IMG/VR virus record: IMGVR_UViG_3300037222_000116
Coordinates: 1-64,000 of that record
Reading direction: 5' to 3' (one strand)
DNA length: 64,000 nt
Origin: a virus
The notes beneath the pieces were generated by a model. That model was not told where the DNA came from and did not search any database. It saw only the letters and a program-made list of their open reading frames with translations. Made by a program: the position numbers and the translations under genes. Shown in pieces: positions 3,446 to 57,891 of the stretch (within the stretch, counting starts at the first letter, position 1; each line of letters begins with the position of its first letter).

Positions 3446-3973
3446 CTAGAGCCGCGTCGGCGACGAGGAGGACACAGACGCGCGGGTGAACGCATAGGCG
3501 AGCACACCGCCTCCCAGCGCGATGAAGAGCGCGGCTGCCACACCGAGGCGTGGTGGCGGGGGCGGCGGCGTGTAAGGCTCGGGAGGAGGCGGGGGTGGCG
3601 GCGTCGTCGAGACATTGTTGTCGCCATCGAAGACGAGGTTGGTCCTCGACGTCCAGAATTCAGTTCCGGGGGAAGGCCCTGCCGCTGGCACGAGCCGAAA
3701 GTTCGCAACCGTCGGCGGGGTACGCAGGATGCCGCTGCGCAGCCGTGTCGGCTGCTGTGCGACGTTGGGACGCAAGAACTTGAAGACGCGTGTTCCAGCC
3801 GGAATGAAGACACGCACCCACTCAATCGTGCGTCCAGTCTTGGGGTCGCGGGACGGACCTCCCGTCACGGTTTCGCCGAGGTCCAACGTTACGCCGCCAT
3901 CGACCACCAGCGCAGCAGCGTCGTAGGAAGGACGCGTGAGCAAAGACGTCCGAACGCGTGTTTGAGCAAGCAT
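3446..3973 (-). CDS. virion-like protein with Pro-rich linker and C-terminal TM
   Basis: This 175-aa protein has a beta-rich N-terminal half (residues 20-115), two runs of seven and six prolines around 120-140, and one TM helix near the end (GVAAALFIALGGGVLAYAF). The layout is a globular head on a rigid stalk with a C-terminal anchor, as in membrane-anchored spikes of internal-membrane viruses. That role is inference; no sequence family was recognised. Confidence 0.45.
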   Translation of the reverse strand: MLAQTRVRTSLLTRPSYDAAALVVDGGVTLDLGETVTGGPSRDPKTGRTIEWVRVFIPAGTRVFKFLRPNVAQQPTRLRSGILRTPPTVANFRLVPAAGPSPGTEFWTSRTNLVFDGDNNVSTTPPPPPPPEPYTPPPPPPRLGVAAALFIALGGGVLAYAFTRASVSSSSPTRL

Positions 3974-4721: not shown

Positions 4722-5774
4722 TCAGCTTCCTTCGTCAGCGTCTTCGAGTATATCGCCCTGCTGCTGGACAATCGAGGACTCGATCGGCGTCAGGCCCGTC
4801 TCGGCGTCGACGGGAGCCTTGATGACGCGCGCCTTGCGCTTCTTGCGGCGCTTCTTGGGAGGAGCCATGAGCATGCGCGGTTCGTCGTCGTAGCCGTCGT
4901 CGTCGCCGTAGCCTGCGTCGCGTTCGCGCGGATCGAACATCTCGCGGCGGGATGATTGCTCGCGCTGATCCTTGCGACCGAAGTACCACGTCGCCACACC
5001 CACGCCGACAGTCAATGCCGTCGTCACGCCGCCGCCGATCCAGAGCCACTTGGACTTTGAATCTTCGACGTCTCCGCTCGGTTCCCCGGCGTCGTTCAAG
5101 CCTCGTGACGAGAAAAAATCATCGAGGATCTCGTCGAGGGCATTGGCCTCGGCGAAGACGACCTTGGGGGCCTGCTGGTCGAGCGGCACGTCGAGCATAC
5201 GGAGCTTCTCGCCCTCGGAGATCGGCCATGCCGTGCCACCACAGTAGTAGATCAGCCTGAGCAGGCTCAGGTTGTGCGGCGAGGGGCTCGTCTCCCGCGT
5301 CCCGGCGCGCGCGAACGGAGCGAGCTGGTCGAGCAAGAACTTGAACTGGTCGCGGGCCTTGACGCCGAAGGGCTTGTTGTCGCTCGTGACGCCGAGCGGC
5401 ACAAACGCGTTCTCACGCCACAGCTCTCTGAGCACGTTGTCGGTGACGTGGGCTCGCTTGTCGACGCCCGCGATGTACGCGCGCCCGTGCATGATGGCTT
5501 CGGGCGTGAAGTTGACCTCGTCGTCCCCCGGCGAGCAGCCACCGAACATCCCGAGCGACCTCGGGGCGTCCTCGGGGACCATGATGCCTGCCGCCTTCGC
5601 GGCGTCTCGAATGATCGCCTCCAGCTCACTCTGCTTCATGCGCAGGAGGCGATAGCTATCGAGCACGACGCAAGGCACACCACCGTTGGCCGCGAGGTTG
5701 ACGATGCGTCGGTACGCGTGGTTCACCAACTCACGACCGCGAGCGATGAACGGGAGGACGTATCCAGCTTGCAT
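4722..5774 (-). CDS. unidentified 350-aa protein with one TM
   Basis: Residues 1-230 form a soluble mixed alpha/beta domain with no recognised motif. A TM helix follows at about 243-262 (GGGVTTALTVGVGVATWYF), then a Lys/Arg-rich stretch (APPKKRRKKRKA) and an acidic end. The ATG at 5774 is only two bases from an 18-bp operator-like element (5777-5794), so either translation is leaderless or the true start lies further in. It is the first gene of a leftward transcription unit. Probable virion or membrane-associated protein. Confidence 0.5.
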   Translation of the reverse strand: MQAGYVLPFIARGRELVNHAYRRIVNLAANGGVPCVVLDSYRLLRMKQSELEAIIRDAAKAAGIMVPEDAPRSLGMFGGCSPGDDEVNFTPEAIMHGRAYIAGVDKRAHVTDNVLRELWRENAFVPLGVTSDNKPFGVKARDQFKFLLDQLAPFARAGTRETSPSPHNLSLLRLIYYCGGTAWPISEGEKLRMLDVPLDQQAPKVVFAEANALDEILDDFFSSRGLNDAGEPSGDVEDSKSKWLWIGGGVTTALTVGVGVATWYFGRKDQREQSSRREMFDPRERDAGYGDDDGYDDEPRMLMAPPKKRRKKRKARVIKAPVDAETGLTPIESSIVQQQGDILEDADEGS

Positions 5775-5776
5775 TG

Positions 5777-5794
5777 TGTAGCGAGCCTACCACA
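5777..5794 (-). promoter_or_regulatory. operator variant upstream of the 350-aa gene
   Basis: On the top strand the site reads TGTAGCG-AGCC-TACCACA, matching the window-wide TGTAGCA-N4-TGCTACA consensus at 6 of 7 and 5 of 7 arm positions with the same 4-bp spacer ending in C. It is divergent from a second copy at 5901-5918. Confidence 0.45.
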
Positions 5795-5807
5795 AGAAGG
5801 GCAGCCG

Positions 5808-5849
5808 CCCGAGGGTTCAGACCGGGGGGAGTAGCCTTTACCCCTCGGG
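5808..5849. repeat. inverted and direct repeats in a divergent intergenic region
   Basis: CCCGAGGG (5808-5815) pairs with CCCTCGGG (5842-5849), and GGGCAGCCGC is directly repeated at 5799 and 5847. The structure lies between two divergent genes and may be a regulator site or a terminator-like hairpin. Confidence 0.4.
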
Positions 5850-5900
5850 CAGCCGCGAAGACAAGACCGTGACAGACCGCACGGGAGATTGCAAGCTCTT

Positions 5901-5918
5901 TGTGGTAGAACTGCAACA
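5901..5918 (+). promoter_or_regulatory. operator variant upstream of the lipoprotein gene
   Basis: TGTGGTA-GAAC-TGCAACA matches the operator consensus with the same spacer length. Its right end runs directly into the AGGAGGAA ribosome site, 14 bases before the lipoprotein ATG. Confidence 0.45.
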
Positions 5919-5932
5919 GGAGGAAACACGTC

Positions 5933-6481
5933 ATGCGCCTTTACATCTTGCTCTTCGCTTCACTCATCGGCTGCACCGGAGACATCACGAGCACCGGCAC
6001 GCCGACGTGCGTCTGCGAGCCAACGGCATGCCCGACCGTCGATGGCGGCGTGGTAACAGCGCCGGATCTCGTTTCTGGAGCGGACGCGCTACCCGTTACT
6101 TCGATCGACATGACGCCGGATGGCTCAAGCAATCCAACTCCTCCTGACATGACACCACCGAACCTGCTAACGCTGCGCGCTGCCTGCGCGACAACCGGAG
6201 GGCAATACAACTTCGGTGTTTGCTGGCGCGAAGGGAACGTCGGCGAAGCGTGTGACGATGTGTGTTCTTCCTACGGAGGGCTCGATGCGCTGCACAGTGC
6301 CCACGATGGTTGTGGCATTGCTACGATGGCGTTCGCGGCGACAGCAACAACATCAAGCAACGGCACGCCATTCGAGGTCATCACCAACGGCAAATGCACA
6401 ACGGCAGACGGCAACCAGTTGCCGCATGGTACTTTGCTTCCACCAACGAACGGACGCTTTGTGTGTGGCTGCCGCGAGTAG
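5933..6481 (+). CDS. secreted lipoprotein with Pro/Asp-rich linker and Cys-rich domain
   Basis: In this 182-aa protein an N-terminal signal peptide ends in a lipobox (ASLIGC, predicted lipidated Cys14). A low-complexity linker with repeated PD, DMTP and PPDM follows to about residue 75. The C-terminal domain has at least eight cysteines, probably disulfide-bonded. Linkers of this kind are frequent in Myxococcota lipoproteins. It is the only forward gene inside a leftward virion block, with its own strong AGGAGGAA site and operator, so it looks like an independently expressed surface protein. Superinfection exclusion or host-surface modification is a guess. Confidence 0.65.
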   Translation: MRLYILLFASLIGCTGDITSTGTPTCVCEPTACPTVDGGVVTAPDLVSGADALPVTSIDMTPDGSSNPTPPDMTPPNLLTLRAACATTGGQYNFGVCWREGNVGEACDDVCSSYGGLDALHSAHDGCGIATMAFAATATTSSNGTPFEVITNGKCTTADGNQLPHGTLLPPTNGRFVCGCRE

Positions 6482-6485
6482 GAAA

Positions 6486-7232
6486 TCAGACGATGACGCG
6501 ATCGAGCGGATCGGCGGCATTCACACCCCAGATCACGGTGTAGCGTGTACGCCCGGCGACAGCGTGTGCGAGGATTTTGATGATGTAGAAGTTCGTGCCG
6601 CCGATCGCTTGTGTGAGACGCCCGAGCTTGATGTTGATGGCGGCAACGTCTTCGACGCCGTAGGCGAGCACTTCCGCAGGGCGATTGACGGAAGTTTGCA
6701 AAGACGCCTGATTCAAGAACTGGTTGATCTCCGTCCGCTGGTCGATCGGAAGGTTCTGCTCTTCGACAGACAGGTAAGGCAAGAAGAGCCCCGAGGTTGT
6801 GTCGAAGAACCACAGCTCGTCGAACTGAAGAACGCGAATGTTCTTCAGCGCCGTGCCTGACGCGCTTCCAGTCGGAAGGTGGGCAATCAGCACCGACAGA
6901 CGCGAGCGGCCATTGCTGTCGTAGGCGGCAGCGTCGACAATCTTGTAGTCACGAAACATCGTGACGCCGTCGCCGCCGAACGGCAATGCCGTGTCGTTGG
7001 CGAAGCGGTCGTTCAGCTCATTGCCGTCCGAGCGCCCGCCGTCGAGATTGCTCACGAGCCCACCGGCTGTGTTGATCTGTCCGATCTGGAAGTAGCGCCG
7101 AGCTGCCCCCGGAGGCAACGGAGCCCCATTCAACTCGTCAACGTACTCGGCGGCGGGCGTCGTGAACCCGCTGACGAGATCGGCTGTGTTGGCTTGCTCT
7201 TCGTAGGTGAGCTGGATGAGTGCCTGTGCCAT
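6486..7232 (-). CDS. predicted virion protein, 248 aa, beta-rich
   Basis: No family recognised. The protein is rich in short strands and Gly/Asn/Asp turns, with no TM or catalytic motif (for example LSVLIAHLPTG, YTVIWGVNAAD). It is preceded by a GAGGA site and lies 13 bp downstream of another beta-rich gene, in the order 8765, 8083, 7246, 6486. The arrangement suggests a capsid or vertex gene cluster. Its 3' end converges on the lipoprotein gene with four bases between stops. Confidence 0.5.
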   Translation of the reverse strand: MAQALIQLTYEEQANTADLVSGFTTPAAEYVDELNGAPLPPGAARRYFQIGQINTAGGLVSNLDGGRSDGNELNDRFANDTALPFGGDGVTMFRDYKIVDAAAYDSNGRSRLSVLIAHLPTGSASGTALKNIRVLQFDELWFFDTTSGLFLPYLSVEEQNLPIDQRTEINQFLNQASLQTSVNRPAEVLAYGVEDVAAINIKLGRLTQAIGGTNFYIIKILAHAVAGRTRYTVIWGVNAADPLDRVIV

Positions 7233-7245
7233 CGGGAATCCTCGC

Positions 7246-7785
7246 TTAGCTCTTCAGCGAGGCAAGCAGCCCCGCGAGCCTGTCAAATCCTGCATCGAGC
7301 GCATCAACAATCCTGCTCGTCGCAGGCTCACCATCTGCTGTCGCTTCCAGCAGCGCTGTCACCCACACAGACACCAAAATCTGATACCCGGAAGGAATGA
7401 CCGCCAACGTTGACGAATCACCACGGAAGTTGGCGTACATGCGTTTGCCCGGTGGGACCGGCAGCGTGACGACGACGTCGAGCGGCAGCATGGTTGCGTT
7501 GCCGGGCTGCGCCTGCGCCAGCTTGCCCTGATCGAAGCCGATGAACACCAGCGGGATCACCTGCCCACCCGCGACAGGCGGCAACCGCACGTTGAACTTG
7601 GTGCTGGTCTGGATGATCGTCGCGACGAACGACACGCTTCGCGCCTGCGTCTGCTCGGGCGTCAGGATCTCCTGCGGAGCAGGCGTGCCGTCGGCAAAGT
7701 ACTGGCCCGCCAACGGCAGATCAAAGAAGAACGATCGCGCCTGCGCGAGATAAGACCCTTGGGGTCGTCGAAGAGGGTTCGCCAT
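7246..7785 (-). CDS. predicted virion protein, 179 aa, beta-rich
   Basis: The central part alternates hydrophobic strands and Pro/Gly turns (VIPLVFIGFDQ, LDVVVTLPVPPG, GYQILVSVWVTALL), compatible with a single jelly-roll or similar beta sandwich. A C-terminal helical segment follows (RIVDALDAGFDRLAGLL). The start at 7785 has a GGAG site. It is adjacent to the putative capsid genes. Function inferred from context only. Confidence 0.5.
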   Translation of the reverse strand: MANPLRRPQGSYLAQARSFFFDLPLAGQYFADGTPAPQEILTPEQTQARSVSFVATIIQTSTKFNVRLPPVAGGQVIPLVFIGFDQGKLAQAQPGNATMLPLDVVVTLPVPPGKRMYANFRGDSSTLAVIPSGYQILVSVWVTALLEATADGEPATSRIVDALDAGFDRLAGLLASLKS

Positions 7786-7819
7786 CAGCGTCTCCTGACT
7801 ACACTACTACGAAGGACGC

Positions 7820-8077
7820 TTATCGCCTACGACGGCGACGGCGCGCACCACTCATGCCGTGCGCTGCACGCCGCGCAGCGTCTTCGGCTGCCTTTGCATG
7901 AGCAGCATTGCAGTCACGCATGGCCTCTGCGTGACCTTCCAACCACGCTTTGTGCTCCACGTCCTCCATGTTGTCTTCGCAATAATGCTGCAAATCTTGC
8001 TCTTGTTCATCGAGCAAGACTTCACATTCGCGGCGTCCGAGTTGCCCGCGAATATCTCCTCGCGCGATCCGGCTCAT
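7820..8077 (-). CDS. small helical protein with GMSGARR basic tail
   Basis: The start at 8077 (MSRIARGD) is chosen because it lies just after the stop of the preceding gene; longer frames read into it. Residues 15-70 are a charged helix with His/Cys (YCED, RDCNAA). The C-terminus is GMSGA followed by eight arginines, an example of the MxGA-plus-arginine ending repeated in this genome. Possible DNA-binding or virion core protein. Confidence 0.5.
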   Translation of the reverse strand: MSRIARGDIRGQLGRRECEVLLDEQEQDLQHYCEDNMEDVEHKAWLEGHAEAMRDCNAAHAKAAEDAARRAAHGMSGARRRRRRR

Positions 8078-8082
8078 TGGGG

Positions 8083-8616
8083 CTACCGCTCCTCGGGGTA
8101 CATCGACTCGGGGGCCTCGGCCAGCTCTTCCGTGTAGCCGTGGACGGCGACCGTGATGTTGTAGGGAGCGCCGATCGCGCCCTCCTGCACCTGCACGCGG
8201 AACTGCACGCCGCCACCGAGAGCGCGAAGGATCAGCTCGCCGGGGTGGAAGATCCACTCGCGCCGTTCCTTGTCGAGAAGACCATCACACGCGATCGGGT
8301 CTTTGGTCAGGTCTTCGTTGCGAACCAGATCCGTGACGAGCAGCGAGACGTTGGCGTAGTCGGAATCGACTTCGTCACCGCCGCCGACGCGTGTGATCGA
8401 GACTTTGATGCGCTTGACGATGAAGGGGCGTGACAGGGCATTGAGGAACGGATCGAGCGGGAACGGAGCCGTGACGCCTGCACCAACGGCTCCCGAATTC
8501 TCCTGCGTCCCGTCGCCGCTCGTGAAGAGCTGCGAGCCGAATGCGAAGGGGTAGCGGAAGAGGCGCTTGCCAGTGGGGACGGCGGCGTCGGAGGGCTTGC
8601 GAACGGGCTTTGCCAT
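8083..8616 (-). CDS. candidate minor/second capsid protein, 177 aa
   Basis: The start at 8616 (MAKPVRKP) follows a GAGGAG site. The body shows strand-turn repeats (FIVKRIKVSITRVGGGDE, VSLLVTDLV, GVQFRVQVQEG, YNITVAVHGYTEE), consistent with a beta-sandwich fold. Together with the 239-aa protein upstream it resembles the two small single-jelly-roll capsid proteins of sphaerolipovirus-like internal-membrane viruses. That comparison rests on size, order and strand pattern, not on recognised sequence identity. Confidence 0.5.
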   Translation of the reverse strand: MAKPVRKPSDAAVPTGKRLFRYPFAFGSQLFTSGDGTQENSGAVGAGVTAPFPLDPFLNALSRPFIVKRIKVSITRVGGGDEVDSDYANVSLLVTDLVRNEDLTKDPIACDGLLDKERREWIFHPGELILRALGGGVQFRVQVQEGAIGAPYNITVAVHGYTEELAEAPESMYPEER

Positions 8617-10354: not shown

Positions 10355-10621
10355 CTACCTGCACTTCTTGAAGGCCCCGGTGGTCTTGTTGCGGCAGCGC
10401 TTGCCGCCCTTGCGGGTCCACGTCGCCACGACGCGCCCGGTGCCACCGCTGACGCGAGACTTGGCGCGCTTGCGGCACTGCCCCTTGCGGGGTCCGCTCT
10501 TCACCTTGCCGTAGGGGCACTTCCGACGGCCTCTGGACCCGTCAATGGTGAACGTGCCGCTCTCAGGAGAGCCGCCGTAGCCATCGTCACTGCCCAGCGT
10601 GAACACGCGCTTGCCTCGCAT
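10355..10621 (-). CDS. small basic Cys protein (CPYGKxK family), 88 aa
   Basis: An N-terminal acidic/Gly part ends in GTFTIDGSRGRR. It is followed by CPYGKVKSGPRKGQCRKR and a second basic Cys segment (KRCRNKTTGAFKKCR). The Cx(Y/F)GK-x-K-(x)-G-x-C core is shared with five other small proteins here (10631, 56225, 57158, 57385, 57715). Strong positive charge suggests genome condensation or packaging. The paired cysteines could bind zinc. Confidence 0.55.
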   Translation of the reverse strand: MRGKRVFTLGSDDGYGGSPESGTFTIDGSRGRRKCPYGKVKSGPRKGQCRKRAKSRVSGGTGRVVATWTRKGGKRCRNKTTGAFKKCR

Positions 10622-10630
10622 GACGCGCCG

Positions 10631-10786
10631 TTACTTCCGGCGACGCTTGTGCTTGAGGCACTGGCCCTTGCGACGACCGACCTTGACCTTGCCGAAGCGG
10701 CACTTCTTGGTCGACTTGCGCCGACGCGCCTTGCCCAGCTCGTCGCTGTCGTTGACGTACATGCTGCGAAGTCCCGTGGTCGTCAT
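10631..10786 (-). CDS. small basic Cys protein (CRFGKxK family), 51 aa
   Basis: The start at 10786 (MTTTGLRS) has GAGGAG eight bases upstream. The order is SDELGKARRRK, then CRFGKVKVGRRKGQC, then LKHKRRRK. ELGKA followed by arginines recurs in the forward paralogs at 56-57 kb. About 40 percent of residues are Lys or Arg, so nucleic-acid condensation is likely. Confidence 0.6.
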   Translation of the reverse strand: MTTTGLRSMYVNDSDELGKARRRKSTKKCRFGKVKVGRRKGQCLKHKRRRK

Positions 10787-18670: not shown

Positions 18671-19237
18671 CTACGCGTAGCTCCGCGAGCGCTTGCGTCG
18701 ACTCCGATACGGAGGGTTGGACGTCAGCATGCGCCCCGAACCATGCATCGCAGAAACGCTGCGTGACTTGAGTGCGTAGCCGATCCCCAAGACAAGTAGC
18801 CCAGCAATGCCAATGCCGCCGACCCACGGCAGCCACGCAGGCATGTCGTCTTGTGGCGGGCCAACAGGAGGACCATATCCGCCGCCATGCGAAGGAACGT
18901 GCTGGGGCAAGTTCGGCGGCGGCGCAACACCAGACGCAGCGAACATCTGCGAGGTCACGAACGCCGCCTTCTTGCCGATGTCAAGAAGCAGGCAGCAGAT
19001 ATGCGACGCGGGCAGATGCCGCTCAACGCTCTTCTCGGCTTGCTCGTACTGCGAGTAAATCGCCTCGACGATCGTCTCGAATGGCTTGTGCCTGTTGTTC
19101 TTCTGCAACACGCCGAAGACATCGAGCATCTTCTGCACGGCGGCTTCACCCGTGAAGCAATCGGATTCAATGCAGAACGGGCCACCACCGGGGCCATTCG
19201 AGGGACCATCAATCGTGAAGACGTTTCCGAGGGCCAT
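18671..19237 (-). CDS. MALGNVFTIDG paralog with C-terminal TM, 188 aa
   Basis: The start at 19237 is set by the shared leader MALGNVFTIDG, two bases after the stop of its paralog. A helical Cys-containing domain spans about 20-110, a Pro/Gly linker about 115-140, one TM follows (WLPWVGGIGIAGLLVLGIGYAL), then MHGSGRM and a basic end. It is a probable virion membrane protein and a tandem duplicate of 19240-19707. Confidence 0.55.
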   Translation of the reverse strand: MALGNVFTIDGPSNGPGGGPFCIESDCFTGEAAVQKMLDVFGVLQKNNRHKPFETIVEAIYSQYEQAEKSVERHLPASHICCLLLDIGKKAAFVTSQMFAASGVAPPPNLPQHVPSHGGGYGPPVGPPQDDMPAWLPWVGGIGIAGLLVLGIGYALKSRSVSAMHGSGRMLTSNPPYRSRRKRSRSYA

Positions 19238-19239
19238 GG

Positions 19240-19707
19240 CTACGCGTGCCTCCGAGCGGACAATCGACGACGACGTGAACCACGCAGCGGCATGCCCTTC
19301 TGGGTCCGGTAGACGTTCACGCCACCCCAGATCAGCGCCCCGACGAGTCCGAGCCCGAGAGCCCACTTGACGACACTCATCCACGATGACGCCGTATTGA
19401 GCTTGGGAGGAATGCGCGATCCCATGAGCGCCGTCAACGCCTGCGCTTGCTCACCGAGCTGCTTCATCTGACAGCAACGCATCGCGTTCCAGACGTTGAT
19501 TTGCCCAAGCTGAGTCAGAATCGCCGTGACATCGCCACGGAACGAATTGGCCTTGGAAGGATCGCTGCGAGCGAGGTCGATGAAGACCGCCTTCATCTCG
19601 CCGATGGCGTTCTGCGCGTCGGTGCAATCGGACTCACCGCACGGGAGCCAATCACTCGCCCCGAGATCAGGCGCTCCGTCGATGGTGAACACGTTTCCGA
19701 GAGCCAC
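19240..19707 (-). CDS. MALGNVFTIDG paralog with C-terminal TM, 155 aa
   Basis: GTG start. The leader MALGNVFTIDG is identical to that of the downstream paralog. Residues 30-105 are helical with Cys pairs (NAMRCCQMKQ). A TM follows at about 115-135 (WALGLGLVGALIWGGVNVY), and the end is KGMPLRGSRRRRLSARRHA. Tandem duplication with divergence is clear from the matching domain order. Confidence 0.55.
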   Translation of the reverse strand: MALGNVFTIDGAPDLGASDWLPCGESDCTDAQNAIGEMKAVFIDLARSDPSKANSFRGDVTAILTQLGQINVWNAMRCCQMKQLGEQAQALTALMGSRIPPKLNTASSWMSVVKWALGLGLVGALIWGGVNVYRTQKGMPLRGSRRRRLSARRHA

Positions 19708-30470: not shown

Positions 30471-30740
30471 TCAGCCATCGGCGACCTCGGTCAAAGACGC
30501 CCCGCTACGAGCCCACTCGGGAGCTTCTTCCAGACCCTTCCCCACGCGCTCTCCGTGCCTGTAGGCGCTCTCGAACGTCTCGATGAAGCACGAGGGGATG
30601 TCAATTCCTCGCGGCGCTCCTGCGAAGCCGCGCAGGTATCCAACCATGTAGACCGACGGGTTGTTCTTTGTCCTCGCCTCGTCGACGTCTTTGACCAGCG
30701 CCTCGATGTCGATGCTGAAGTGGATCTCTCGCGCCGCCAT
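30471..30740 (-). CDS. unidentified protein, 89 aa
   Basis: The start overlaps the stop of the HTH gene. The sequence is a strand (IHFSIDIEALVKDV) followed by helices, with no motif. Co-expression with the regulator suggests an accessory role. Function unknown. Confidence 0.5.
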   Translation of the reverse strand: MAAREIHFSIDIEALVKDVDEARTKNNPSVYMVGYLRGFAGAPRGIDIPSCFIETFESAYRHGERVGKGLEEAPEWARSGASLTEVADG

Positions 30741-31177
30741 CAGTCGTTGTCCCGAGGCGCATCGTCATCGTCTTCGTCGGTGGGAGACGGCGAGATAACC
30801 GCGCCGAGCGGAGGCAGAGGCCACAAGTTACGCTGCTTGAGCATGGTCCCGCAGCGGGACTCCATGAACTCCGCACCTTCGAGAAGCAGCATGGATCGAG
30901 CCTCTGCCACCAACGTTGCGTCGTCGTGCTTCTGAAAAGCCTGCCATGCACGATATTCCTCGTCGGTGGCGACCTTCTCGACCCATTCAGCACCACCAAG
31001 AGAGTCTGTCTTGGCCTTGCGAATGAAGGCGTCGATGTCGTCGCTGTCATAGCGAACCGCCCGCGGAGGCACGCGGATGTGTGGGAACGACAACTTCTTG
31101 TCGAGCCGCGCCAACATCAACGATCGGTACGAGATCCCGAGGCGCGCTGCGGCCTCACGTTCACTGATGAGTGCCAT
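30740..31177 (-). CDS. MerR/excisionase-like HTH regulator, 145 aa
   Basis: The start at 31177 (MALISERE) follows GAGGAG by eight bases. Residues 3-52 read as a winged-helix of the excisionase/HTH_17 type (SEREAAARLGISYRSLMLARL ... VPPRAVRYDSDDIDAFIRK). Helical and acidic parts follow. It lies next to the putative origin and the primase gene, and an operator-like site is in its own upstream region (31225-31242). It is therefore a candidate for the factor that reads the window-wide operator. This is inference. Confidence 0.65.
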   Translation of the reverse strand: MALISEREAAARLGISYRSLMLARLDKKLSFPHIRVPPRAVRYDSDDIDAFIRKAKTDSLGGAEWVEKVATDEEYRAWQAFQKHDDATLVAEARSMLLLEGAEFMESRCGTMLKQRNLWPLPPLGAVISPSPTDEDDDDAPRDND

Positions 31178-31242: not shown

Positions 31243-31315
31243 AAAAAACGACACGGCTTGCTACTTGTTCATGCGCCTTGGTCCACCGCTCGCACGGCGC
31301 TGGCCTAAGACAACC

Positions 31316-31356
31316 AAAGGTTTTCAAAATAGGGCGTTTTGGTGAAAACCTTTTTT
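31316..31356 (+). terminator. stem-loop followed by T-run
   Basis: AAAGGTTTTCA (31316-31326) pairs with TGAAAACCTTT (31343-31353) and runs into six Ts. It looks like a rightward terminator but also forms two of the repeat units of the origin-like region. Confidence 0.35.
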
Positions 31357-31434
31357 CCGTTTGTGTTCCATCAAGTTACACCACCAACTACCAAAGGTTT
31401 TCAGGTTTTCATCGAATAAAAGTGGTCTAGGATC

Positions 31435-31516
31435 AGAGGTACTTGTATGACAAACTCGTAATTAGCTTTAGAGGACCGAAAAACACAAAATACGAGTTTG
31501 TTATGCAAGTACCTCT
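31435..31516 (+). repeat. 26-bp hairpin with two G-U pairs
   Basis: The arms 31435-31460 and 31491-31516 pair along all 26 positions in top-strand RNA. The only two departures from perfect DNA complementarity are both G-U wobbles. The loop is 30 nt. In bottom-strand RNA the same positions would be A-C mismatches, so a rightward RNA may be the selected form. Confidence 0.7.
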
Positions 31517-31610
31517 CTGTAGAGAGAAGTTATGCAGGCGTGAAAACCTGAAAACCTTGAATGAAATCGCGGAAACGACGAAAAAGTTGAAAAGCTTTTG
31601 AAAAGCTTAC

Positions 31611-34091
31611 TTAGTTGACGAGACTGCCGGGAGGCAGGCACGAAGTACGAACTCGTATCGAATACATGGTCTGGTGCTGTCCTGAAAGCGTCACCACAGG
31701 GTAGGTTCCGACGCGGAGGGAACGCAGACGCCGACGCAACGTCGCCGACGACATCTTGGCATGTCCGTTCTTGGACGCCCAATACGCGTAGGCTTCGTAG
31801 AGATCGTCCAGCGTCGTCCCGAGGGGGGTAGCTACGATCTCGGTCGTCTCGTTGACCCAGCGCATCACCGGGTCGATGTCCTGCTGCCAGTCGAAGCCCG
31901 ATGTCTCTGCCGAAGGTGGCAGGAGCAGGCTGCCTCGCGTAAGAGCCCTTCTTGCGCCCTCGACCGCCCAGAGAGCGATCCCTGCCAGCTCCGTCATCGC
32001 GATGCGCTCGGCGAGCTTCAGGTCGCGCTCGTGGGCTTGGAAGTGCCTGTTGAAGTGGATGACCGCGAAGCGTCGGAAGAACGCCGGGGTGTAGTCGTTG
32101 GAGGCGGGGAGGTCGTTCGCCGAGAACATATGTCCAGCCCGCGGCCTGTAGAAGAAGCTGCCCTTATACAATTCCCGTGCCCGAATGAGCTTGCCGCCGA
32201 CGATCTCCTTGAACGACGCCGACGCCAAGATGTCGCGCTCGGGGATTTCACTGACGGCGTTCAGGAGCTTGCCGCGCAGCGCAGCACGCACCCCCTCGCC
32301 GTCGAGGTCTTGGGGCTTGATGGTCGACGTGAATGCCTGCGGGAAGAGGCCGGGGACGTGGTCGTTAGGACCGCTCAGGATGTCGATCAGGACGCTCTTG
32401 CCGTTTTGAGTGAGTCCGGTGAGCATCGCGCAGACCTCGAAGCGCCACGCCTCGCCGAAGAGCGTGACTCCAATCCACTCTTGCAGAAACGCGATCTTCT
32501 GCGCCTTGTCAGCGTCGTTGATGAAGCACTCGTCGAGGTAGAGCAAGAAGCGGGCGGCTCGCGCCTCTTGGTCATAATCGTAAGGCATCGTTGAGCGAAT
32601 TCGGTGCGCAGCGGTGAACGGCTCCAGAATAGTCACGCCGTCAGCAAAGCGCAGGAAGCCGTTTCTGAACGGGACGCCTGCGGGTGCCAGCGCAAAGAAG
32701 TCAGGCTGGTTAATCAACTTGCTGGCGAGGCGGATTGTACCGACGATGTCGCTGTCTTTTAGAGCGAGGCGCTTCGTGATCCCTTGAATCATCCCGGCAT
32801 AGCTGCTGACGATGCGTGTGAGATCGTCGGCGAGAATGGGATGCCATTGCTTCGTCGCTGGATCACACCTGTAGTGTTGTCCGTCGCTGTGGACGACATC
32901 CTCGAAGCTGTCACCTTTGAGATCGCTGTTGAGCTTCGCTGCCAACTCGGGGTGATCTCCCCGGTTGAACCCCCAATCACCACTCTCACCCCAACCGCCG
33001 ATGAGCTTTTTGACCTTCATCCATGATTGCGCGTTGTTTCCACAATGATTGTGAAAACAGGATGAGAGAATCGCTCCGGTCGGAATAATCGAAATCATCC
33101 GAGTGTATGGAATAGGGTGTGCGGGATCGGTTGGACATACTTTGAGATCCCAATGGAATTGTGTTTTTTTAGAGAATTCGATTTTCTGTTTTATCAGCCA
33201 GCTCTCGACGCGGTGAGCGTTGGTGAGTGCATCTTCGGTTGGTGTCCAATCTGTAATTGGTTCGTGCTTACGTACACCCGTGTCGGTTGCATTGCTTTCG
33301 AGGATAGGATGAGCATCTATCATTGCCGTCAACGTGTGCGACATCGTTTCGTTGAAGCTCACCCAACGAGTGAGGTAGGGATCTTTGCGCTTCCAGTTCC
33401 ACGAGCCCGCGAGACGCAAGACTTGGCGGGGACTCTTAGCAATGGCTTTGTCGGTCTGAAGGTGGCATGCGAGCTGTAGCTCAGCTTCAGTCCAACGGGC
33501 AATAGGCTCTCCGCTGTTGATGGCGAAGTAACCGTGCTTCTTGCGGTCGCTGTTGGATGTTTGAAGAATTGCCGTCGGTGGTAGCTTGGGAGCAGGAGGC
33601 GTCTCACACGTCCCGTCGTCATCGTAGACAAGCATCTTGACGATCGCATCGGGAGCCGTCTTGGGTCGCGAGTAGAGGACTTCAGTCATCTCGGCTGGCG
33701 GCGTGTACCCGGTCGTGTCGCAGGCATTGACGCTGATGTAGATAGCTGCCTTGCGTTGTGGCGAGTTGTAGTTGGAGATCGCCTTCCAGCATTCGTCCAG
33801 TGTCCCGACGAGAATTGGATTGCGCGCCTTGCGCACGCCGTCCTTGGTGTAGTGCATCATGTTGTCGTCGGGGTGAGGGACGATCTGGAAGACGCAGACG
33901 GTCTTGGTGGGGTCTGCGTCGCCAAAGAGCAGCTTGATGTGCTTCTCGGCGTCTGCTCGATTGATCATCCCCGGCGTCAGCGTGATTGGAGCTGGAGGTG
34001 TTACCAGCGTGCTACGCAACGGTGGCAGGGTGATGTCGTCCACGCCGACGTCTTCATCGTCGGGCAACGGAGGCAGCGATGGCGCTGACAT
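31611..34091 (-). CDS. D5/P4-type primase-helicase, 826 aa
   Basis: Replication initiator combining primer synthesis and unwinding. The N-terminal half (about 50-250) looks like an archaeo-eukaryotic primase domain (CVFQIVPHPDDNMM, KAAIYISVNACD, AILQTSNSDRKKHGYF, QVLRLAGSWNWKRK). A Cys/His spot (SSCFHNHCG, 343-351) follows. The C-terminal half is an SF3 helicase of the D5/phage P4 type with Walker A GLTQNGKS (559-566), LLNAVSEIP (609-617), SANDLP (657-662) and an Arg pair at 673-674. The start MSAPSLPPLPDDED follows no clear ribosome site. Confidence 0.85.
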   Translation of the reverse strand: MSAPSLPPLPDDEDVGVDDITLPPLRSTLVTPPAPITLTPGMINRADAEKHIKLLFGDADPTKTVCVFQIVPHPDDNMMHYTKDGVRKARNPILVGTLDECWKAISNYNSPQRKAAIYISVNACDTTGYTPPAEMTEVLYSRPKTAPDAIVKMLVYDDDGTCETPPAPKLPPTAILQTSNSDRKKHGYFAINSGEPIARWTEAELQLACHLQTDKAIAKSPRQVLRLAGSWNWKRKDPYLTRWVSFNETMSHTLTAMIDAHPILESNATDTGVRKHEPITDWTPTEDALTNAHRVESWLIKQKIEFSKKTQFHWDLKVCPTDPAHPIPYTRMISIIPTGAILSSCFHNHCGNNAQSWMKVKKLIGGWGESGDWGFNRGDHPELAAKLNSDLKGDSFEDVVHSDGQHYRCDPATKQWHPILADDLTRIVSSYAGMIQGITKRLALKDSDIVGTIRLASKLINQPDFFALAPAGVPFRNGFLRFADGVTILEPFTAAHRIRSTMPYDYDQEARAARFLLYLDECFINDADKAQKIAFLQEWIGVTLFGEAWRFEVCAMLTGLTQNGKSVLIDILSGPNDHVPGLFPQAFTSTIKPQDLDGEGVRAALRGKLLNAVSEIPERDILASASFKEIVGGKLIRARELYKGSFFYRPRAGHMFSANDLPASNDYTPAFFRRFAVIHFNRHFQAHERDLKLAERIAMTELAGIALWAVEGARRALTRGSLLLPPSAETSGFDWQQDIDPVMRWVNETTEIVATPLGTTLDDLYEAYAYWASKNGHAKMSSATLRRRLRSLRVGTYPVVTLSGQHQTMYSIRVRTSCLPPGSLVN

Positions 34092-38620: not shown

Positions 38621-38836
38621 GTGGCTGACTTCAATCGGCGAGAAGAAGATCACGAGATCCCGCGTGCGACGTGTATCGGCGAGACGGCGAAAGCTCTCAA
38701 GGTCGAGCACTCCTCGGGTGAGGAGTTGTGGGTTCCCAAGTCTGTGATCTGCGAAGCGTCGGACGTCAAGGAACTCGGTGACTATGGCACTCTCGTCATT
38801 CCTCAGTGGTTTGCGAAAAAGGAGAACTTGTTCTAA
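38621..38836 (+). CDS. small beta-barrel-like protein, 71 aa
   Basis: GTG start two bases after the previous stop. Strand-rich (TAKALKVEHSSGEELWVPKSVI ... GTLVIPQWFAKKENLF), in the style of small phage OB/SH3 proteins that modulate nucleases. The gene at 46839 ends with a similar WVPKNKVF pattern. Function unknown. Confidence 0.5.
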   Translation: MADFNRREEDHEIPRATCIGETAKALKVEHSSGEELWVPKSVICEASDVKELGDYGTLVIPQWFAKKENLF

Positions 38837-39156
38837 TGGCAAAATCAGTCGAAATACAGGCGGCGTTCGGTGTTCGTTTCAAGCTCCGCGCCGAGGGGGA
38901 CAAGCTCTACGCCGCGGGGGGCAAGCTCTGCGCCGAGGGGGACAAGCTCTACGCCGCGGGGGGCAAGCTCTACGCCGAGGGGGGCAAGCTCCGCGCCGAG
39001 GGGGGCAAGCTCTGCGCCGAGGGGGGCAAGCTCCGCGCCGAGGGGGACCTCGTTTTCTCTGTTGCGGTCATCGCTGCCTTCGGAGCAAAAGCAATCATCG
39101 AGTGGTGGAGGAAAGACGGTAGCGTCTTCGTGAACGATGAGGAGTATAGCTCGTGA
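38836..39156 (+). CDS. heptapeptide-repeat protein, 106 aa
   Basis: ATG 38836 overlaps the preceding TAA. Residues about 15-71 are eight tandem copies of a seven-residue unit, K-L-x-A-(E/A)-G-(G/D). A hydrophobic stretch follows (LVFSVAVIAAFGAKAII), then a charged end. Similar KLxAEG repeats occur in uncharacterised phage proteins (from memory). The regular unit suggests a solenoid or coiled fold. Function unknown. Confidence 0.6.
   Translation: MAKSVEIQAAFGVRFKLRAEGDKLYAAGGKLCAEGDKLYAAGGKLYAEGGKLRAEGGKLCAEGGKLRAEGDLVFSVAVIAAFGAKAIIEWWRKDGSVFVNDEEYSS
38880..39048 (+). repeat. 21-bp tandem repeats inside the heptapeptide-repeat gene
   Basis: About eight copies of a 21-bp unit (GGCAAGCTC-type start) encode KLxAEGG/D. 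Copies differ mainly at the x residue (Arg, Tyr, Cys) and at G/D, so the array can expand or contract by recombination without frameshift. Confidence 0.85.
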
Positions 39157-43585: not shown

Positions 43586-43840
43586 ATGGCGAGTTGCAAA
43601 GTGTGTCTCGAACACCTGCGCAAAGATGGCACCTGCAAATGGGCTTGTGATCCAAAGCTCGCCAATCCATTCAAGCGCACACGCCCTGTCGGCGTCAAAG
43701 AAGTGCCTGCTGACCAGCGCGGCGCAACGTTCTCGGTGGCAGAGCGACAGAACATGAGCAACGCGGTCGCCAAGGTCGACAAGACCTACGCGAGCTGGAG
43801 CAATGAGATTCTTGCCCGGAAGAACCACGGCTCACGGTGA
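43586..43840 (+). CDS. zinc-knuckle protein, 84 aa
   Basis: ATG 43586 is about eleven bases after GGAGGG; a GTG at 43577 is possible. CKVCLEHLRKDGTCKWAC (residues 4-21) is a compact four-cysteine site. The rest is polar and helical. It is coupled to the polymerase gene and may be a polymerase accessory factor, by position only. Confidence 0.5.
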   Translation: MASCKVCLEHLRKDGTCKWACDPKLANPFKRTRPVGVKEVPADQRGATFSVAERQNMSNAVAKVDKTYASWSNEILARKNHGSR

Positions 43841-46836
43841 GCACGGCAGTCGCTACGCCTGTTGTTCGCCTGACCGTCTTGCAGAAGCGTCTGCTCGATG
43901 ACGGGGCGAGATGCTGGGAGTGTCCTCTAGGGCGCGACGGCGCTCCATCCAAGCCTGTAGCTACACAATGGCACAGCAATGGTTCGCCAGCGTTGGCCTT
44001 GGTAGGGGAAGCGCCCGGCAGGAGAGAATGTCAAGTAGGTGCCCCATTCGTCGGCGCGAGCGGAAAAATGCTCGATACGGTCTTGAATCAGACCGAGATC
44101 CCACGAAACCAAATCGCCATCCTGAACTGCGCTGCTTGCGGTCCAATCCCATCTGCGGCTGACGACATCAAGCGTCGTGCGGTCGAAGCGTGCAGGCCGC
44201 GCCTGCTCGCTGAGCTGAACAGGCTTCAGCCCAAAGTCATTCTTGGGCTCGGTGCGAGCGCCCTGAAGTCTCTCTCGCCACAGCAGAAGAGCGGCATTAC
44301 CGTCCTGCGCGGTGCAATGCTGGACTTAGGTACTGACGTCGCGACCAAGTGGAAGCCGTCAGGCTTCTTTACAACTTTTCATCCGGCGCACATTCTTCGA
44401 GGCGGTGACGCCGAGGCCGAGGGACCGGGAGACGAGGGAAGCAGCGCCGTAGACCTCCTGTTCTACTTCTTCCTGTACGACGTCCTGAAGGCGTGGAACG
44501 TCGCGCAGGGCCTTGCGTCACCGTGGCGCGACGAATGTGACCTGTTCGTCCACAGTGAAGAAGGCAAGCTGTTTCGGGCGACGACCAATGCCACTGGCGC
44601 AGGCGTCGTTGGAGACGAAGCACACGCCGACGAGCTGATTGCTGCCGCACAGCGCCTCGCCGACGAAGCGCGTACCGAGGGCCGCTTTGCCTGCGACGTC
44701 GAGACAGACGGCAAGAATTCACTTCTCGCCAACCTGACTGCCATCGGCTTCGCGACGACGTTGGGCGGCTTGAGTGCGACGTGGGAGGCATGGCAGCGCG
44801 TACCGCAGGCGCTCGGGATCATGCGCGAACTGCTCGCTGATCCACATATCCACATCGTTTTCCACAACCGGACCTACGACACCTGTGTCCTGCCACGACA
44901 CGAGCTGCCGGTGCTCGGCATCGTCGACGACACGTTGCTCTTTCACCATGCAGCGTTCCCCGGCCTGCCACACAAGCTCGACCAAGTAGCCACGCAGTTT
45001 CTCATCACGCCGCCGTGGAAAAACGAATTCCGAAAGGGCACAAAAGACTTCGCGACGTTGGTGCTTTACAACTTCAGAGACGCGCACGCGACAGCATTGT
45101 TGGTTGGGCCGTTGATCAACATGATCAAGGCCCACAAGACCGAGAAGGTCTACGAAGTCGACCGCCAGTGTGCGGGCGTCGCGACCGAGATGCGCAAGAT
45201 CGGCTTCTACGTCGATCGCGTCGAGCAGAAGCGACATAGCGACATTCAGCACGCCCGCCTCAAGTACATGCGGGAGTCGTTGACCAAGAGCTTCACGGAC
45301 ATCGCTGAGCCATGGCGCGTCCAGCTCGCCAAGAACAACGCCAACAAAGTCAGGAAAAAAGACCCCGAGAGCTATCTCGACCGGGTTGCGATTCGCTATC
45401 GCGAGATCGCCGAGCGAGAGAAGAAGCCGACAGACATCGGCTTCTTCAAGCCCAAAGCCAAAGCAGACATCGTCGCTCTCTTTGAAGTGCTCAGGATTCC
45501 CTTCACGGCGTACACGAGTAAGGGCGCTCCGATCACAGACAAGAACGCAATGGAGCTGGCATCGATGCGCCACCCGTTGCTGCGGCAGTTGATTGACCTA
45601 CGAGAAGCGCAGCAGTTGCTCGCGACCTACATCGACGGTCTGCCAGTGATGTTCGATGGACGCCTGCACCCTGATTGGAGCGTGAATAAAGTCACTGGAC
45701 GATGGTCTGCTGGGAAAACCCAGAACGTCCCCAAGCAGGTGAGTAGCTGGCCCCCGGAGACGAATGACGATGGGACTTGGAAGAGGAAGAAAAAAGGCGC
45801 GTACATCACGCCGATCGAGAACCCGCGCTCGATTGTCTGCGCGCCGAGTGCGGCTCAAATTCTGTCACTCGGCTCGAAAGCGCATCCCGAAGTCCTGAGT
45901 CGTGCTCTCGAAGGCTACAGGCGTATGCTCTTCGGAGCTGACTCAGCCCAACAAGAGCTGCGCATCGTCGCGCTGATCAGTGGTGACAAGTTCCTGCTGG
46001 ACATCTTCAATCGTGGCGAAGACCCGCACGCCGCCTTCGCGCGAATCGCTTTCCCGAAGGTCTTTCCTCAGATCGAAGCTGAGCTGGCGAAGCACGGCGT
46101 CAAGCCCAAGGACACAGCATTCACCAAGAAGAAGATTGCTGAAGCGCAGAACGACATCGAGCGGGCGCATTGGAATGCTGTGCTGCGGCTTCAGAAGAAT
46201 TGGAGCAAGCTCCGCGACGTCTCGAAGAACGGCGAGTTCGGCTGCATCTACGGCGCAGGAGCCATGAAGATTTACGAGACATGGCGCATGCGTCTGCCCG
46301 ACGAGGAGACGCTGACTCTGTCTGATGCCGAGGCATTCTTCGAGACGTGCAACCGAGTGCTGGAGGGAGTCAACCGCTGGCGCAATCGGATGGAGACAGA
46401 CGCGAGATTGCGAAGAGAGATCCGAGAGGTCTTGGGATACCGGGTTCGACTCTTCCCGCTCGGGCACTTCAATCCCAATATCTGTTACAACTTCCCGGTC
46501 CAAGCCTTCGGCGCATCGTTGATTGCGAGGGCTATCTTCCGGTTCGTGGCGCTGACGCAGCCGTCGTGGCTCAACCTCGGGATGCTCTACAAGAACGGCC
46601 TGCTCGATGCCAAGTGGGTGAGTGACAGAAGAGCCGAGGGCTATGGTGATTGGAAGGCTCCTGTGTGGCTGTTGATCAACGGCCACGATTCACTGGTCGG
46701 TGAATGCGACGAGGAGGACGCTGCCAAAGCCGCCAAGCTGCTAGAGCTGGCAATGACGATGCGCGTGAACATCGGCGACGCGTCGATTCTCTTTCCCGCC
46801 GAGCCTGACGTCGGCGTTCGTTGGTCGGAGGTTTGA
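43837..46836 (+). CDS. uracil-DNA glycosylase (family 4-like) / DNA polymerase A fusion, 999 aa
   Basis: GTG start, GTGA overlap. Residues 1-220 match a family 4 UDG: GEAPG (57-61), GAPFVG (68-73), HPAHI (182-186) and cysteines 26, 29, 98/101 and 119 for a 4Fe-4S cluster. Residues 283-425 are a DnaQ-like 3'-5' exonuclease (DVE 287-289, NRTYD 344-348, YNFRD 411-415). Residues 440-999 are polymerase A: TGRW near 620, motif A DSAQQELR (702-709), motif B R793-K797-YG805, motif C HDS (950-952) where HDE is usual. It is the replicative polymerase, apparently able to remove uracil from its own template. Confidence 0.85.
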   Translation: MSTAVATPVVRLTVLQKRLLDDGARCWECPLGRDGAPSKPVATQWHSNGSPALALVGEAPGRRECQVGAPFVGASGKMLDTVLNQTEIPRNQIAILNCAACGPIPSAADDIKRRAVEACRPRLLAELNRLQPKVILGLGASALKSLSPQQKSGITVLRGAMLDLGTDVATKWKPSGFFTTFHPAHILRGGDAEAEGPGDEGSSAVDLLFYFFLYDVLKAWNVAQGLASPWRDECDLFVHSEEGKLFRATTNATGAGVVGDEAHADELIAAAQRLADEARTEGRFACDVETDGKNSLLANLTAIGFATTLGGLSATWEAWQRVPQALGIMRELLADPHIHIVFHNRTYDTCVLPRHELPVLGIVDDTLLFHHAAFPGLPHKLDQVATQFLITPPWKNEFRKGTKDFATLVLYNFRDAHATALLVGPLINMIKAHKTEKVYEVDRQCAGVATEMRKIGFYVDRVEQKRHSDIQHARLKYMRESLTKSFTDIAEPWRVQLAKNNANKVRKKDPESYLDRVAIRYREIAEREKKPTDIGFFKPKAKADIVALFEVLRIPFTAYTSKGAPITDKNAMELASMRHPLLRQLIDLREAQQLLATYIDGLPVMFDGRLHPDWSVNKVTGRWSAGKTQNVPKQVSSWPPETNDDGTWKRKKKGAYITPIENPRSIVCAPSAAQILSLGSKAHPEVLSRALEGYRRMLFGADSAQQELRIVALISGDKFLLDIFNRGEDPHAAFARIAFPKVFPQIEAELAKHGVKPKDTAFTKKKIAEAQNDIERAHWNAVLRLQKNWSKLRDVSKNGEFGCIYGAGAMKIYETWRMRLPDEETLTLSDAEAFFETCNRVLEGVNRWRNRMETDARLRREIREVLGYRVRLFPLGHFNPNICYNFPVQAFGASLIARAIFRFVALTQPSWLNLGMLYKNGLLDAKWVSDRRAEGYGDWKAPVWLLINGHDSLVGECDEEDAAKAAKLLELAMTMRVNIGDASILFPAEPDVGVRWSEV

Positions 46837-56224: not shown

Positions 56225-56509
56225 ATGGACACCATCGACGACGGCGAGCTGGGGCGCGCAGGGCGCTGCAAGTACGGCAAGGTCACGCGCGGCAGGCGCA
56301 AGGGGCAATGTCGCTTGCACAAGAAGGCTCCCAAGGCGAGCAAGCGGCGCAGCGGGCAGCGGCATTGCGTGCGGACGGCGGTCAATCGTCTCACGCGCCG
56401 CGAGTACTGCGCTGACTACGAGCCGGGTCCGTCGCCCTACCCCAAGGGCACGCGCTTCATCCAGCCGGTCTACGGCGCGCGGCGTAGCAAGCGTCGTCGC
56501 TCACGCTAG
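56225..56509 (+). CDS. small basic Cys protein (CKYGKxT family), 94 aa
   Basis: ATG 56225 is the leaderless start; the upstream TTG is not. DDGELGRAGR, then CKYGKVTRGRRKGQCRLHKK, a second Cys pair, and an end VYGARRSKRRRSR. It joins the ELGRA, CxYGKxK and GARR motifs in one protein. Very basic, so a DNA-condensing virion protein is likely. Confidence 0.6.
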   Translation: MDTIDDGELGRAGRCKYGKVTRGRRKGQCRLHKKAPKASKRRSGQRHCVRTAVNRLTRREYCADYEPGPSPYPKGTRFIQPVYGARRSKRRRSR

Positions 56510-57157: not shown

Positions 57158-57373
57158 ATGGCGACCAACGAATTCGTTTCCAACGACGGCGAGCTGGGGC
57201 GCGCACGCAAGCGCACCTGCAAGTTCGGCAAGACCAAGGCGGGCAAGTGCCGCAAGACGCCCAAGCGCAAGGGTCGCCGTGGGTGCTCCTTCGGTCGCTC
57301 GCGCACCACCGGCAAGTGCAAGCCGCGCACGAGCAAGTACGGCACGCAGCGCGGCCCCCTGCGCCCTCGCTAA
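57158..57373 (+). CDS. small basic Cys protein (CKFGKTK family), 71 aa
   Basis: CGGAG precedes ATG 57158 (not leaderless). NDGELGRARKRTCKFGKTKAGKC, then a second CSFGRSRTTGKC unit. Two tandem copies of the CxFG(K/R)x(K/R)xxGxC module. More than a third of residues are Lys or Arg. Confidence 0.65.
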   Translation: MATNEFVSNDGELGRARKRTCKFGKTKAGKCRKTPKRKGRRGCSFGRSRTTGKCKPRTSKYGTQRGPLRPR

Positions 57374-57384
57374 AGGAGACGACC

Positions 57385-57699
57385 ATGAGCGACTGTGGAT
57401 GTGACGGAGGCGACGACCTCGGTCGCGCCAAGAAGCGACGCACCTGCAAGTACGGTCGCGTCAAGAGCACCGGGCGCTGCCGCAAGCAGCCGAAGCGTCG
57501 CACTGCCTCGAAGCGAGGCCGGGCGATCCCCAAGGTCTGCAAGCAGCAGCTCTCGCGCGACATGAGGGCCGCGCACGGCGACCGCGGGATGGCGCGCGAC
57601 GCGATGTACGCGTTCCACAACTGCACCGACGACATCAAGCGCGGTGTGCGCACGAGGTCGCAGGGCATGTTCGGCGCACGCCGCCGCAAGCGTCGATAG
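57385..57699 (+). CDS. small basic Cys protein with GMFGARR tail, 104 aa
   Basis: AAAGGAG precedes ATG 57385. GGDDLGRAKKRRTCKYGRVKSTGRC, a basic linker, a helical part (QQLSRDMRAAHGDRGMARDAMYAF) and an end GMFGARRRKRR. Paralog of its neighbours with an added helical domain. Confidence 0.65.
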   Translation: MSDCGCDGGDDLGRAKKRRTCKYGRVKSTGRCRKQPKRRTASKRGRAIPKVCKQQLSRDMRAAHGDRGMARDAMYAFHNCTDDIKRGVRTRSQGMFGARRRKRR

Positions 57700-57714: not shown

Positions 57715-57891
57715 ATGCCCAAGCGCAGCGACGAGTACACCGAGGGCTTTCGCACGGGGTATGACGAGGGCAAGAACGACGGCTACGAGCAGTGCGAAGA
57801 AGCCGCGAAGCGTGGTGCGCTGAGCGGCTCTCGCCGCCGTTGCAAGTACGGCAAGACGAAGGCCGGGAAGTGTCGCAAGCGTCCTCGCTGA
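57715..57891 (+). CDS. small basic Cys protein (CKYGKTK family), 58 aa
   Basis: ATG 57715 to TGA 57889-57891. A charged N-terminal helix (EYTEGFRTGYDEGKNDGYEQC) is followed by GALSGSRRRCKYGKTKAGKCRKRPR. Third of three consecutive paralogs on one forward transcript. Confidence 0.6.
   Translation: MPKRSDEYTEGFRTGYDEGKNDGYEQCEEAAKRGALSGSRRRCKYGKTKAGKCRKRPR

Follow-up and report, generated by a model that had tools for sequence, protein, structure and literature searches.

Where does a virus with almost no recognisable relatives begin to copy its genome? Record IMGVR_UViG_3300037222_000116 holds 87,902 bases and ends in an exact 122-bp repeat, which gives a circular length of 87,780 bp; its positions 1 to 64,000 make up the stretch of DNA analysed here, hereafter the window. 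The initial annotation had singled out about 300 bp of repeats between a gene for a helix-turn-helix (HTH) protein and a primase-helicase gene as a candidate replication origin. This placement holds and can be made more precise: on the minus strand, which carries both genes, the repeats follow the primase stop codon (31611) and precede the start of the HTH gene (31177). In total, 433 non-coding bases separate the two, and the repeats are confined to bases 31310-31610 (the repeat region). The two genes are:

30740 to 31177, minus strand: small HTH_17-like gene (excisionase/regulator type), 145 codons, downstream of the proposed origin
31611 to 34091, minus strand: AEP primase / SF3 (D5/P4-type) helicase gene, 826 codons, with a C-terminal winged-helix-like domain, the proposed initiator

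We consider it most probable (roughly 86%) that 31310-31610 is a Rep-adjacent iteron replication origin of a temperate-type phage, whose iterons would be bound by its own primase-helicase, leading to bidirectional copying. The basis for this reading was obtained by computation and consists of the location, the repeats, the mirror symmetry of the inner pairs, the instability of the DNA, the skew minimum, the homology of the helicase and the recurrence of the layout. Rep-adjacent iteron origins are already a known kind; what is new here is a member in a full-size phage.

Iterons and nested inverted repeats

The core GGTTTTCA has six exact copies in the whole 87.9-kb record, all of which fall within 31319-31556. 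Its longer form AAAGGTTTTCA occurs exactly at 31316-31326 (plus), 31343-31353 (minus) and 31393-31403 (plus), and with one mismatch at 31549-31559 (minus) and 31588-31598 (minus); these five copies in the window (three exact, two with one mismatch) compare with 0.34 expected, and none of 100 shuffles reached five. With one mismatch allowed, a 10-mer iteron gives eight copies in 300-450 bp (shuffle mean 2.25, maximum 3), a number that none of 60 background windows matched. The copies are present in both orientations, as had been claimed, at or within a few bases of where the initial annotation put them, and the tandem repeat it reported was found as TTGAAAAGCTT at 31587-31608. The nearest iteron ends 2-3 bases from the primase stop codon at 31611.

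31316 to 31326, plus strand: iteron 1, AAAGGTTTTCA
31343 to 31353, minus strand: iteron 2, AAAGGTTTTCA
31393 to 31403, plus strand: iteron 3, AAAGGTTTTCA, first of a tandem pair with 8-bp period
31404 to 31411, plus strand: iteron 4, GGTTTTCA, second of the tandem pair
31541 to 31548, minus strand: iteron 5, GGTTTTCA
31549 to 31559, minus strand: iteron 6, CAAGGTTTTCA
31587 to 31608, minus strand: iterons 7 and 8, degenerate, TTGAAAAGCTT in tandem, 11-bp period

An 18-bp perfect inverted repeat enclosing a 26-bp hairpin had also been described, and both are present. The arms of the former lie 52-69 and 199-216 nt past the primase stop:

31394 to 31411, plus strand: left arm of the 18-bp perfect inverted repeat (tandem iteron pair)
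31541 to 31558, minus strand: right arm of the 18-bp perfect inverted repeat (mirrored tandem iteron pair)
31435 to 31463, plus strand: left arm of the central hairpin, 29 nt, free of iterons
31464 to 31487, no strand: loop of the central hairpin, 24 nt
31488 to 31516, minus strand: right arm of the central hairpin

The 29-nt hairpin arms are 90% complementary, with 26 bp paired including two G.T wobbles on the plus strand, which become A.C mismatches on the other strand (31435-31516). The 18-bp inverted repeat is centred at 31476 and the 29-nt-arm repeat at 31475.5, so that the two centres agree within 0.5 bp. When folded as DNA, the region has a z-score of -8.8, and none of 200 shuffles was as stable. 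The hairpin could serve in priming or in regulation, or be bound by another protein. One further copy of its half-site ACAAACTCGTA, carrying one mismatch, lies inside the primase gene at 31647-31657 (3 of 100 shuffles reach three matches). The inner tandem iteron pairs mirror each other perfectly and the outer iterons are not mirror-symmetric. Across all eight iterons four are mirrored, which equals the chance expectation, and we therefore claim mirroring for the inner pairs only.

Genome-wide signals

Over the whole circularised genome, the check that the initial annotation had proposed, the cumulative GC skew is lowest at 31392 (31395 with the trend removed), a global minimum inside the repeat region. 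Its amplitude is 788, whereas 5000 block shuffles averaged 398 and surpassed it in 0.02% of cases (p = 0.0002). Skew at fourfold-degenerate sites, corrected for strand, is noisy, with best fits at 41-55 kb and 31-55 kb close behind. The AT-richness that had been noted is pronounced (62% against 39% for the genome), and nearest-neighbour energies place the genome's least stable stretches of 100, 200 and 300 bp here as well, with starts at 31405, 31337 and 31316, respectively:

31316 to 31615, no strand: least stable 300-bp stretch of the whole genome, containing the cumulative GC-skew minimum (31392-31395)

Three genome-wide measures (skew minimum, lowest stability and confinement of the iterons) thus point to the same 300 bp as the origin, and the earlier proposal is supported by the skew minimum together with the iteron clusters beside homologous genes described below. 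No TTATNCACA, the DnaA box, occurs anywhere in the genome, and we therefore rejected a DnaA-dependent iteron plasmid origin. An Rfam search of the region gave no match.

The primase-helicase as proposed initiator

The 826-aa protein has Pfam-type matches to DUF5906, D5_N and Pox_D5 (the latter two below the curated cut-off) and matches several PHROG primase families. When its N-terminal half is aligned with phage relatives, the DxD, H and R-containing motifs of archaeo-eukaryotic-type primases can be made out by eye, and an SF3-type helicase with the Walker A motif GLTQNGKS is also present. A profile built from 30 relatives matched the SaPI5 Rep primase-helicase (7ola; E 7.9e-30) and the pRN1 protein ORF904 (1rni; E 9e-9), as well as poxvirus D5. 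The AlphaFold model is confident for residues ~380-815 and unreliable in the N-terminal half; its helicase part matches 7ola with a Foldseek E of 6.3e-19. At the C-terminal end the model shows several helices followed by a two-stranded beta wing, for which the sole hint from sequence is weak (RFX5, E 0.09).

SaPI Rep uses its C-terminal domain to recognise iterons that immediately follow its own gene, and the isolated C-terminal domain of Cch2 likewise binds repeats downstream of its gene (PMC7581432). By homology with these proteins we infer that the primase-helicase is the iteron binder here, and the loading of a double hexamer, the melting and the initiation would be conceived along the same lines. 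The winged-helix-like C-terminal domain would bind the tandem iterons past the end of its own gene. Given that one tandem pair faces its mirror image, helicase rings could load in head-to-head orientation, flanking the unstable AT-rich centre. They would then melt this centre and move apart, while the fused primase might prime both strands and thereby allow bidirectional copying.

Comparison with known origins

The closest parallel is found in phage-inducible satellites (PICIs), whose origins lie immediately 3' of pri-rep and have two iteron sets flanking an AT-rich region, an organisation that was called unique and present in no other known bacterial replicon (PMC6092414). The resemblance extends to SaPIs: in both cases the origin directly follows a homologous primase-helicase gene and places two iteron sets around an AT-rich region (PMC6092414; PMC7581432), and the helicase of our virus structurally resembles SaPI5 Rep (7ola). 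The location 3' of the gene, the opposed iteron sets around an AT-rich region and the homologue of the SaPI5 Rep/P4-type helicase, all hallmarks of a Rep-adjacent iteron origin, are present in the window. However, PICIs and SaPIs are small, helper-dependent satellites that have neither a virion nor replication-fork genes of their own, whereas this is an 88-kb virus with its own PolA-type polymerase, and only here does a separate long hairpin fill the centre. We rejected PICI satellite identity because the record spans 87.9 kb and carries its own replication-fork genes. The phage P4 alpha/ori-crr system has a second, distant iteron cluster (crr) besides ori; this type was rejected as the record has a single cluster that holds all six exact cores.

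The record of Lactobacillus phage A2 (AJ251789.2) carries a rep_origin annotation, from which the origin status derives, on the bases that follow its homologous primase gene. The annotated stretch contains seven ACGGGAGGAT-type repeats, forward at 7, 19 and 83 and reverse at 159, 167, 223 and 235. As in the window, this origin begins at the end of the primase gene and has mirrored iteron sets around an AT-rich centre. The iteron letters differ, being ACGGGAGGAT in A2 and AAGGTTTTCA in the window, as do the periods (12 versus 8-11), and no long central hairpin was found in A2.

A more distant parallel is the Sulfolobus plasmid pRN1, in which experiments showed a ~100-nt stem-loop 3' of orf904 to be essential for replication (PMC4234260). 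This stem-loop (positions 3482-3581 of our locus L170) has 21-nt perfect arms. Read from the sequence, each arm holds a tandem TGTCCA repeat with a period of 9, which would make mirrored iteron pairs of the stem; we did not encounter this reading in the parts of PMC4234260 consulted. In pRN1 the perfect inverted repeat lies ~53-54 nt 3' of an AEP/SF3/winged-helix Rep gene, compared with 52 nt in the window, which thus has the long stem-loop ~50 nt 3' of the Rep gene that typifies pRN1, plus the central hairpin. Unlike the virus, pRN1 is an archaeal plasmid with one repeat pair per arm, a 58-nt AT-rich loop and no further iterons. PMC4234260 cites BIP-1 as having a similar stem-loop; our check of BIP-1 for the pRN1-like design found only a weak inverted repeat, without tandem iterons. 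A further partial parallel is Cch2 of SCCmec, a D5-type helicase that uses its C-terminal domain to bind direct repeats lying past the end of its gene, but in this case there are three 5-nt repeats and a separate primase-polymerase pair (PMC7581432).

Recurrence of the layout in distant homologues

No close relative was found by single-protein scans of viral contigs (primase, PolA and SNF2-type helicase) or genome contigs (primase), nor by nucleotide searches of phages and plasmids. We therefore turned to distant relatives and looked for iterons past the end of their homologous genes; an alignment of seven sequences proved too divergent for use as a search query. The conservation of repeats in relatives that had been proposed as a check can accordingly be judged in distant homologues, where two Myxococcales loci, A2 and pRN1 have clusters of their own, and not in the virus's own lineage, which has yielded no close relatives.

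The two nearest primase-helicase homologues (35-36% identity) belong to Myxococcales MAG loci and are followed, at the same place 3' of the gene, by four and seven repeats of their own kind. In the first of these loci (L121) four copies are also reached by 9 of its 34 background windows, so that the inverted tandem arrangement is the better evidence there. Its gene order (4836-8272) is D5-type helicase, iterons, HTH_17 gene and integrase, and it looks like a small integrative element or a prophage edge. Its HTH protein has no BLASTP similarity to that of the window; both match HTH_17 weakly. This locus suggests, short of showing it, a myxobacterial host range for relatives of the virus.

Further afield, GGTGACGCAC-type repeats begin at the stop codon in 15 Rhodobacterales-type prophage loci, the fullest of which mirror exactly (-16, -5 and 45 forward; 140, 190 and 201 reverse); their TGACGCA iteron cores are largely invariant and the centre varies. 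Clusters 3' of the gene were also found in mycobacteriophage KiSi (eight iterons), Acidithiobacillus phage AcaML1 (five), Rhodobacter phage RcapNL (five, reached by 2 of 13 background windows) and Paenibacillus phage LincolnB (six, reached by 2 of 17). A2 and the alphaproteobacterial loci show significant mirror symmetry. No iterons follow the homologous gene in the Seuss-like lytic phages, in several others or, more generally, in most of the homologues surveyed; the primase alone does not, therefore, imply such an origin.

We scored all loci uniformly for an inverted repeat 3' of the gene whose arms contain a tandem repeat of period 8-12. Of the 104 non-redundant loci, 19 had this design, compared with 1 of 831 background windows; A2, pRN1 and the two Myxococcales loci are among the 19. 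Since the rule was framed after several examples had been seen, what carries information is the contrast with the background. One Rhodobacterales/Alphaproteobacteria family accounts for many of the 19 loci, and we judge the number of independent lineages to be about eight. The arm repeat period is 8 in the window, 8 and 9 in the two Myxococcales loci, 9 in pRN1, AcaML1, KiSi and RcapNL, 11 in the Rhodobacterales loci and 12 in A2. These replicons share the location and the mirrored tandem iterons but not the iteron letters, and the layout recurs beside related genes in phages, their satellites and one archaeal plasmid alike.

Alternative functions of the repeats

The repeats could instead serve the HTH_17-like protein as operators at the promoter of its own gene, in which case the hairpin might terminate or attenuate transcription of the primase. 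The region does flank the HTH gene on its 5' side and follows the primase gene, which has the same orientation. However, eight copies over 300 bp, the lowest duplex stability and the skew minimum exceed an operator's needs, and no intrinsic terminator or sigma-70-like promoter was matched within the region. Moreover, among homologous loci the gene beyond the iterons varies (RusA, terminase-type, HTH or hypothetical) while the iterons stay by the primase-helicase. We therefore regard a purely regulatory role as improbable, although dual use of the region as origin and operator is possible.

Inverted arm-like repeats around a dyad, an excisionase-like HTH neighbour, an integrase encoded in the genome and the helicase-iterons-HTH-integrase order of the first Myxococcales locus would also suit a phage attachment site (attP), in which arm-type sites flank a core and the HTH protein acts as excisionase. 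Yet the integrase gene (72990-73916) is 41 kb away from the repeat region, whereas a tyrosine-integrase attP would be expected beside it, and the dyad arms (29 nt, 24 apart) are unlike a tyrosine-recombinase core. Considering that pRN1 and loci lacking an integrase neighbour also have this layout directly beside a Rep gene, an attP is very improbable. Least credible is a role in partition or incompatibility through the ParB-like protein encoded at 64839-65819 of the record, for although iteron-like repeats also act as centromeres and such a gene is present, it lies 33 kb from the repeat region and homologous loci keep the repeats with a Rep gene.

Wider implications

With a Rep-adjacent iteron origin as the preferred reading, the layout described as exclusive to phage satellites (PMC6092414) is extended to full-size phages and prophages (A2 and the surveyed loci), and the pRN1 'stem-loop' origin can be read as the same mirrored iteron design. 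For a virus this isolated, it also provides a precise and testable proposal of origin and initiator. Food for a more tentative thought, to which we give somewhat less than even odds, is that mirrored tandem-iteron inverted repeats 3' of AEP/SF3/winged-helix Rep genes represent one ancient origin design in archaeal plasmids (pRN1), satellites and full-size temperate phages, the letters changing with the initiator and the geometry staying constant. If true, the origins of this Rep family that have been published under the names 'stem-loop' and 'iteron' would be one and the same. To this design our virus would add a second, non-iteron hairpin at the exact centre, perhaps as a priming site.

Other features of the genome

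The record encodes its own replication genes, namely a PolA-type polymerase, an SNF2-type helicase, a Sak4-like protein and ThyX. At 43837-46836 of the window, a fusion protein combines a uracil-DNA-glycosylase domain with a family A DNA polymerase that includes a 3'-5' exonuclease. Among the proteins scanned from the structural region (~1-23 kb and 75-87 kb), neither Pfam nor PHROGs recognised a terminase or major capsid protein, and a single portal-like match was the only one; the virion genes would thus appear to be highly divergent or of an undescribed kind.

Two adjacent genes (18671-19237 and 19240-19707) both start with the peptide MALGNVFTIDG, which suggests gene duplication or a signal common to both. 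A motif like C(K/R)(Y/F)GK(V/T)K.G.RKGQCR, often preceded by LGRA(R/K), is found in at least six short basic proteins, which are predicted from it to form a dispersed paralogous family:

10355 to 10621, 10631 to 10786, 56225 to 56509, 57158 to 57373, 57385 to 57699 and 57715 to 57891: short basic proteins with the shared motif

Finally, the protein encoded at 38836-39156 of the window consists largely of repeats of the type LRAEGGKLCAEGDKLYAAGGK.
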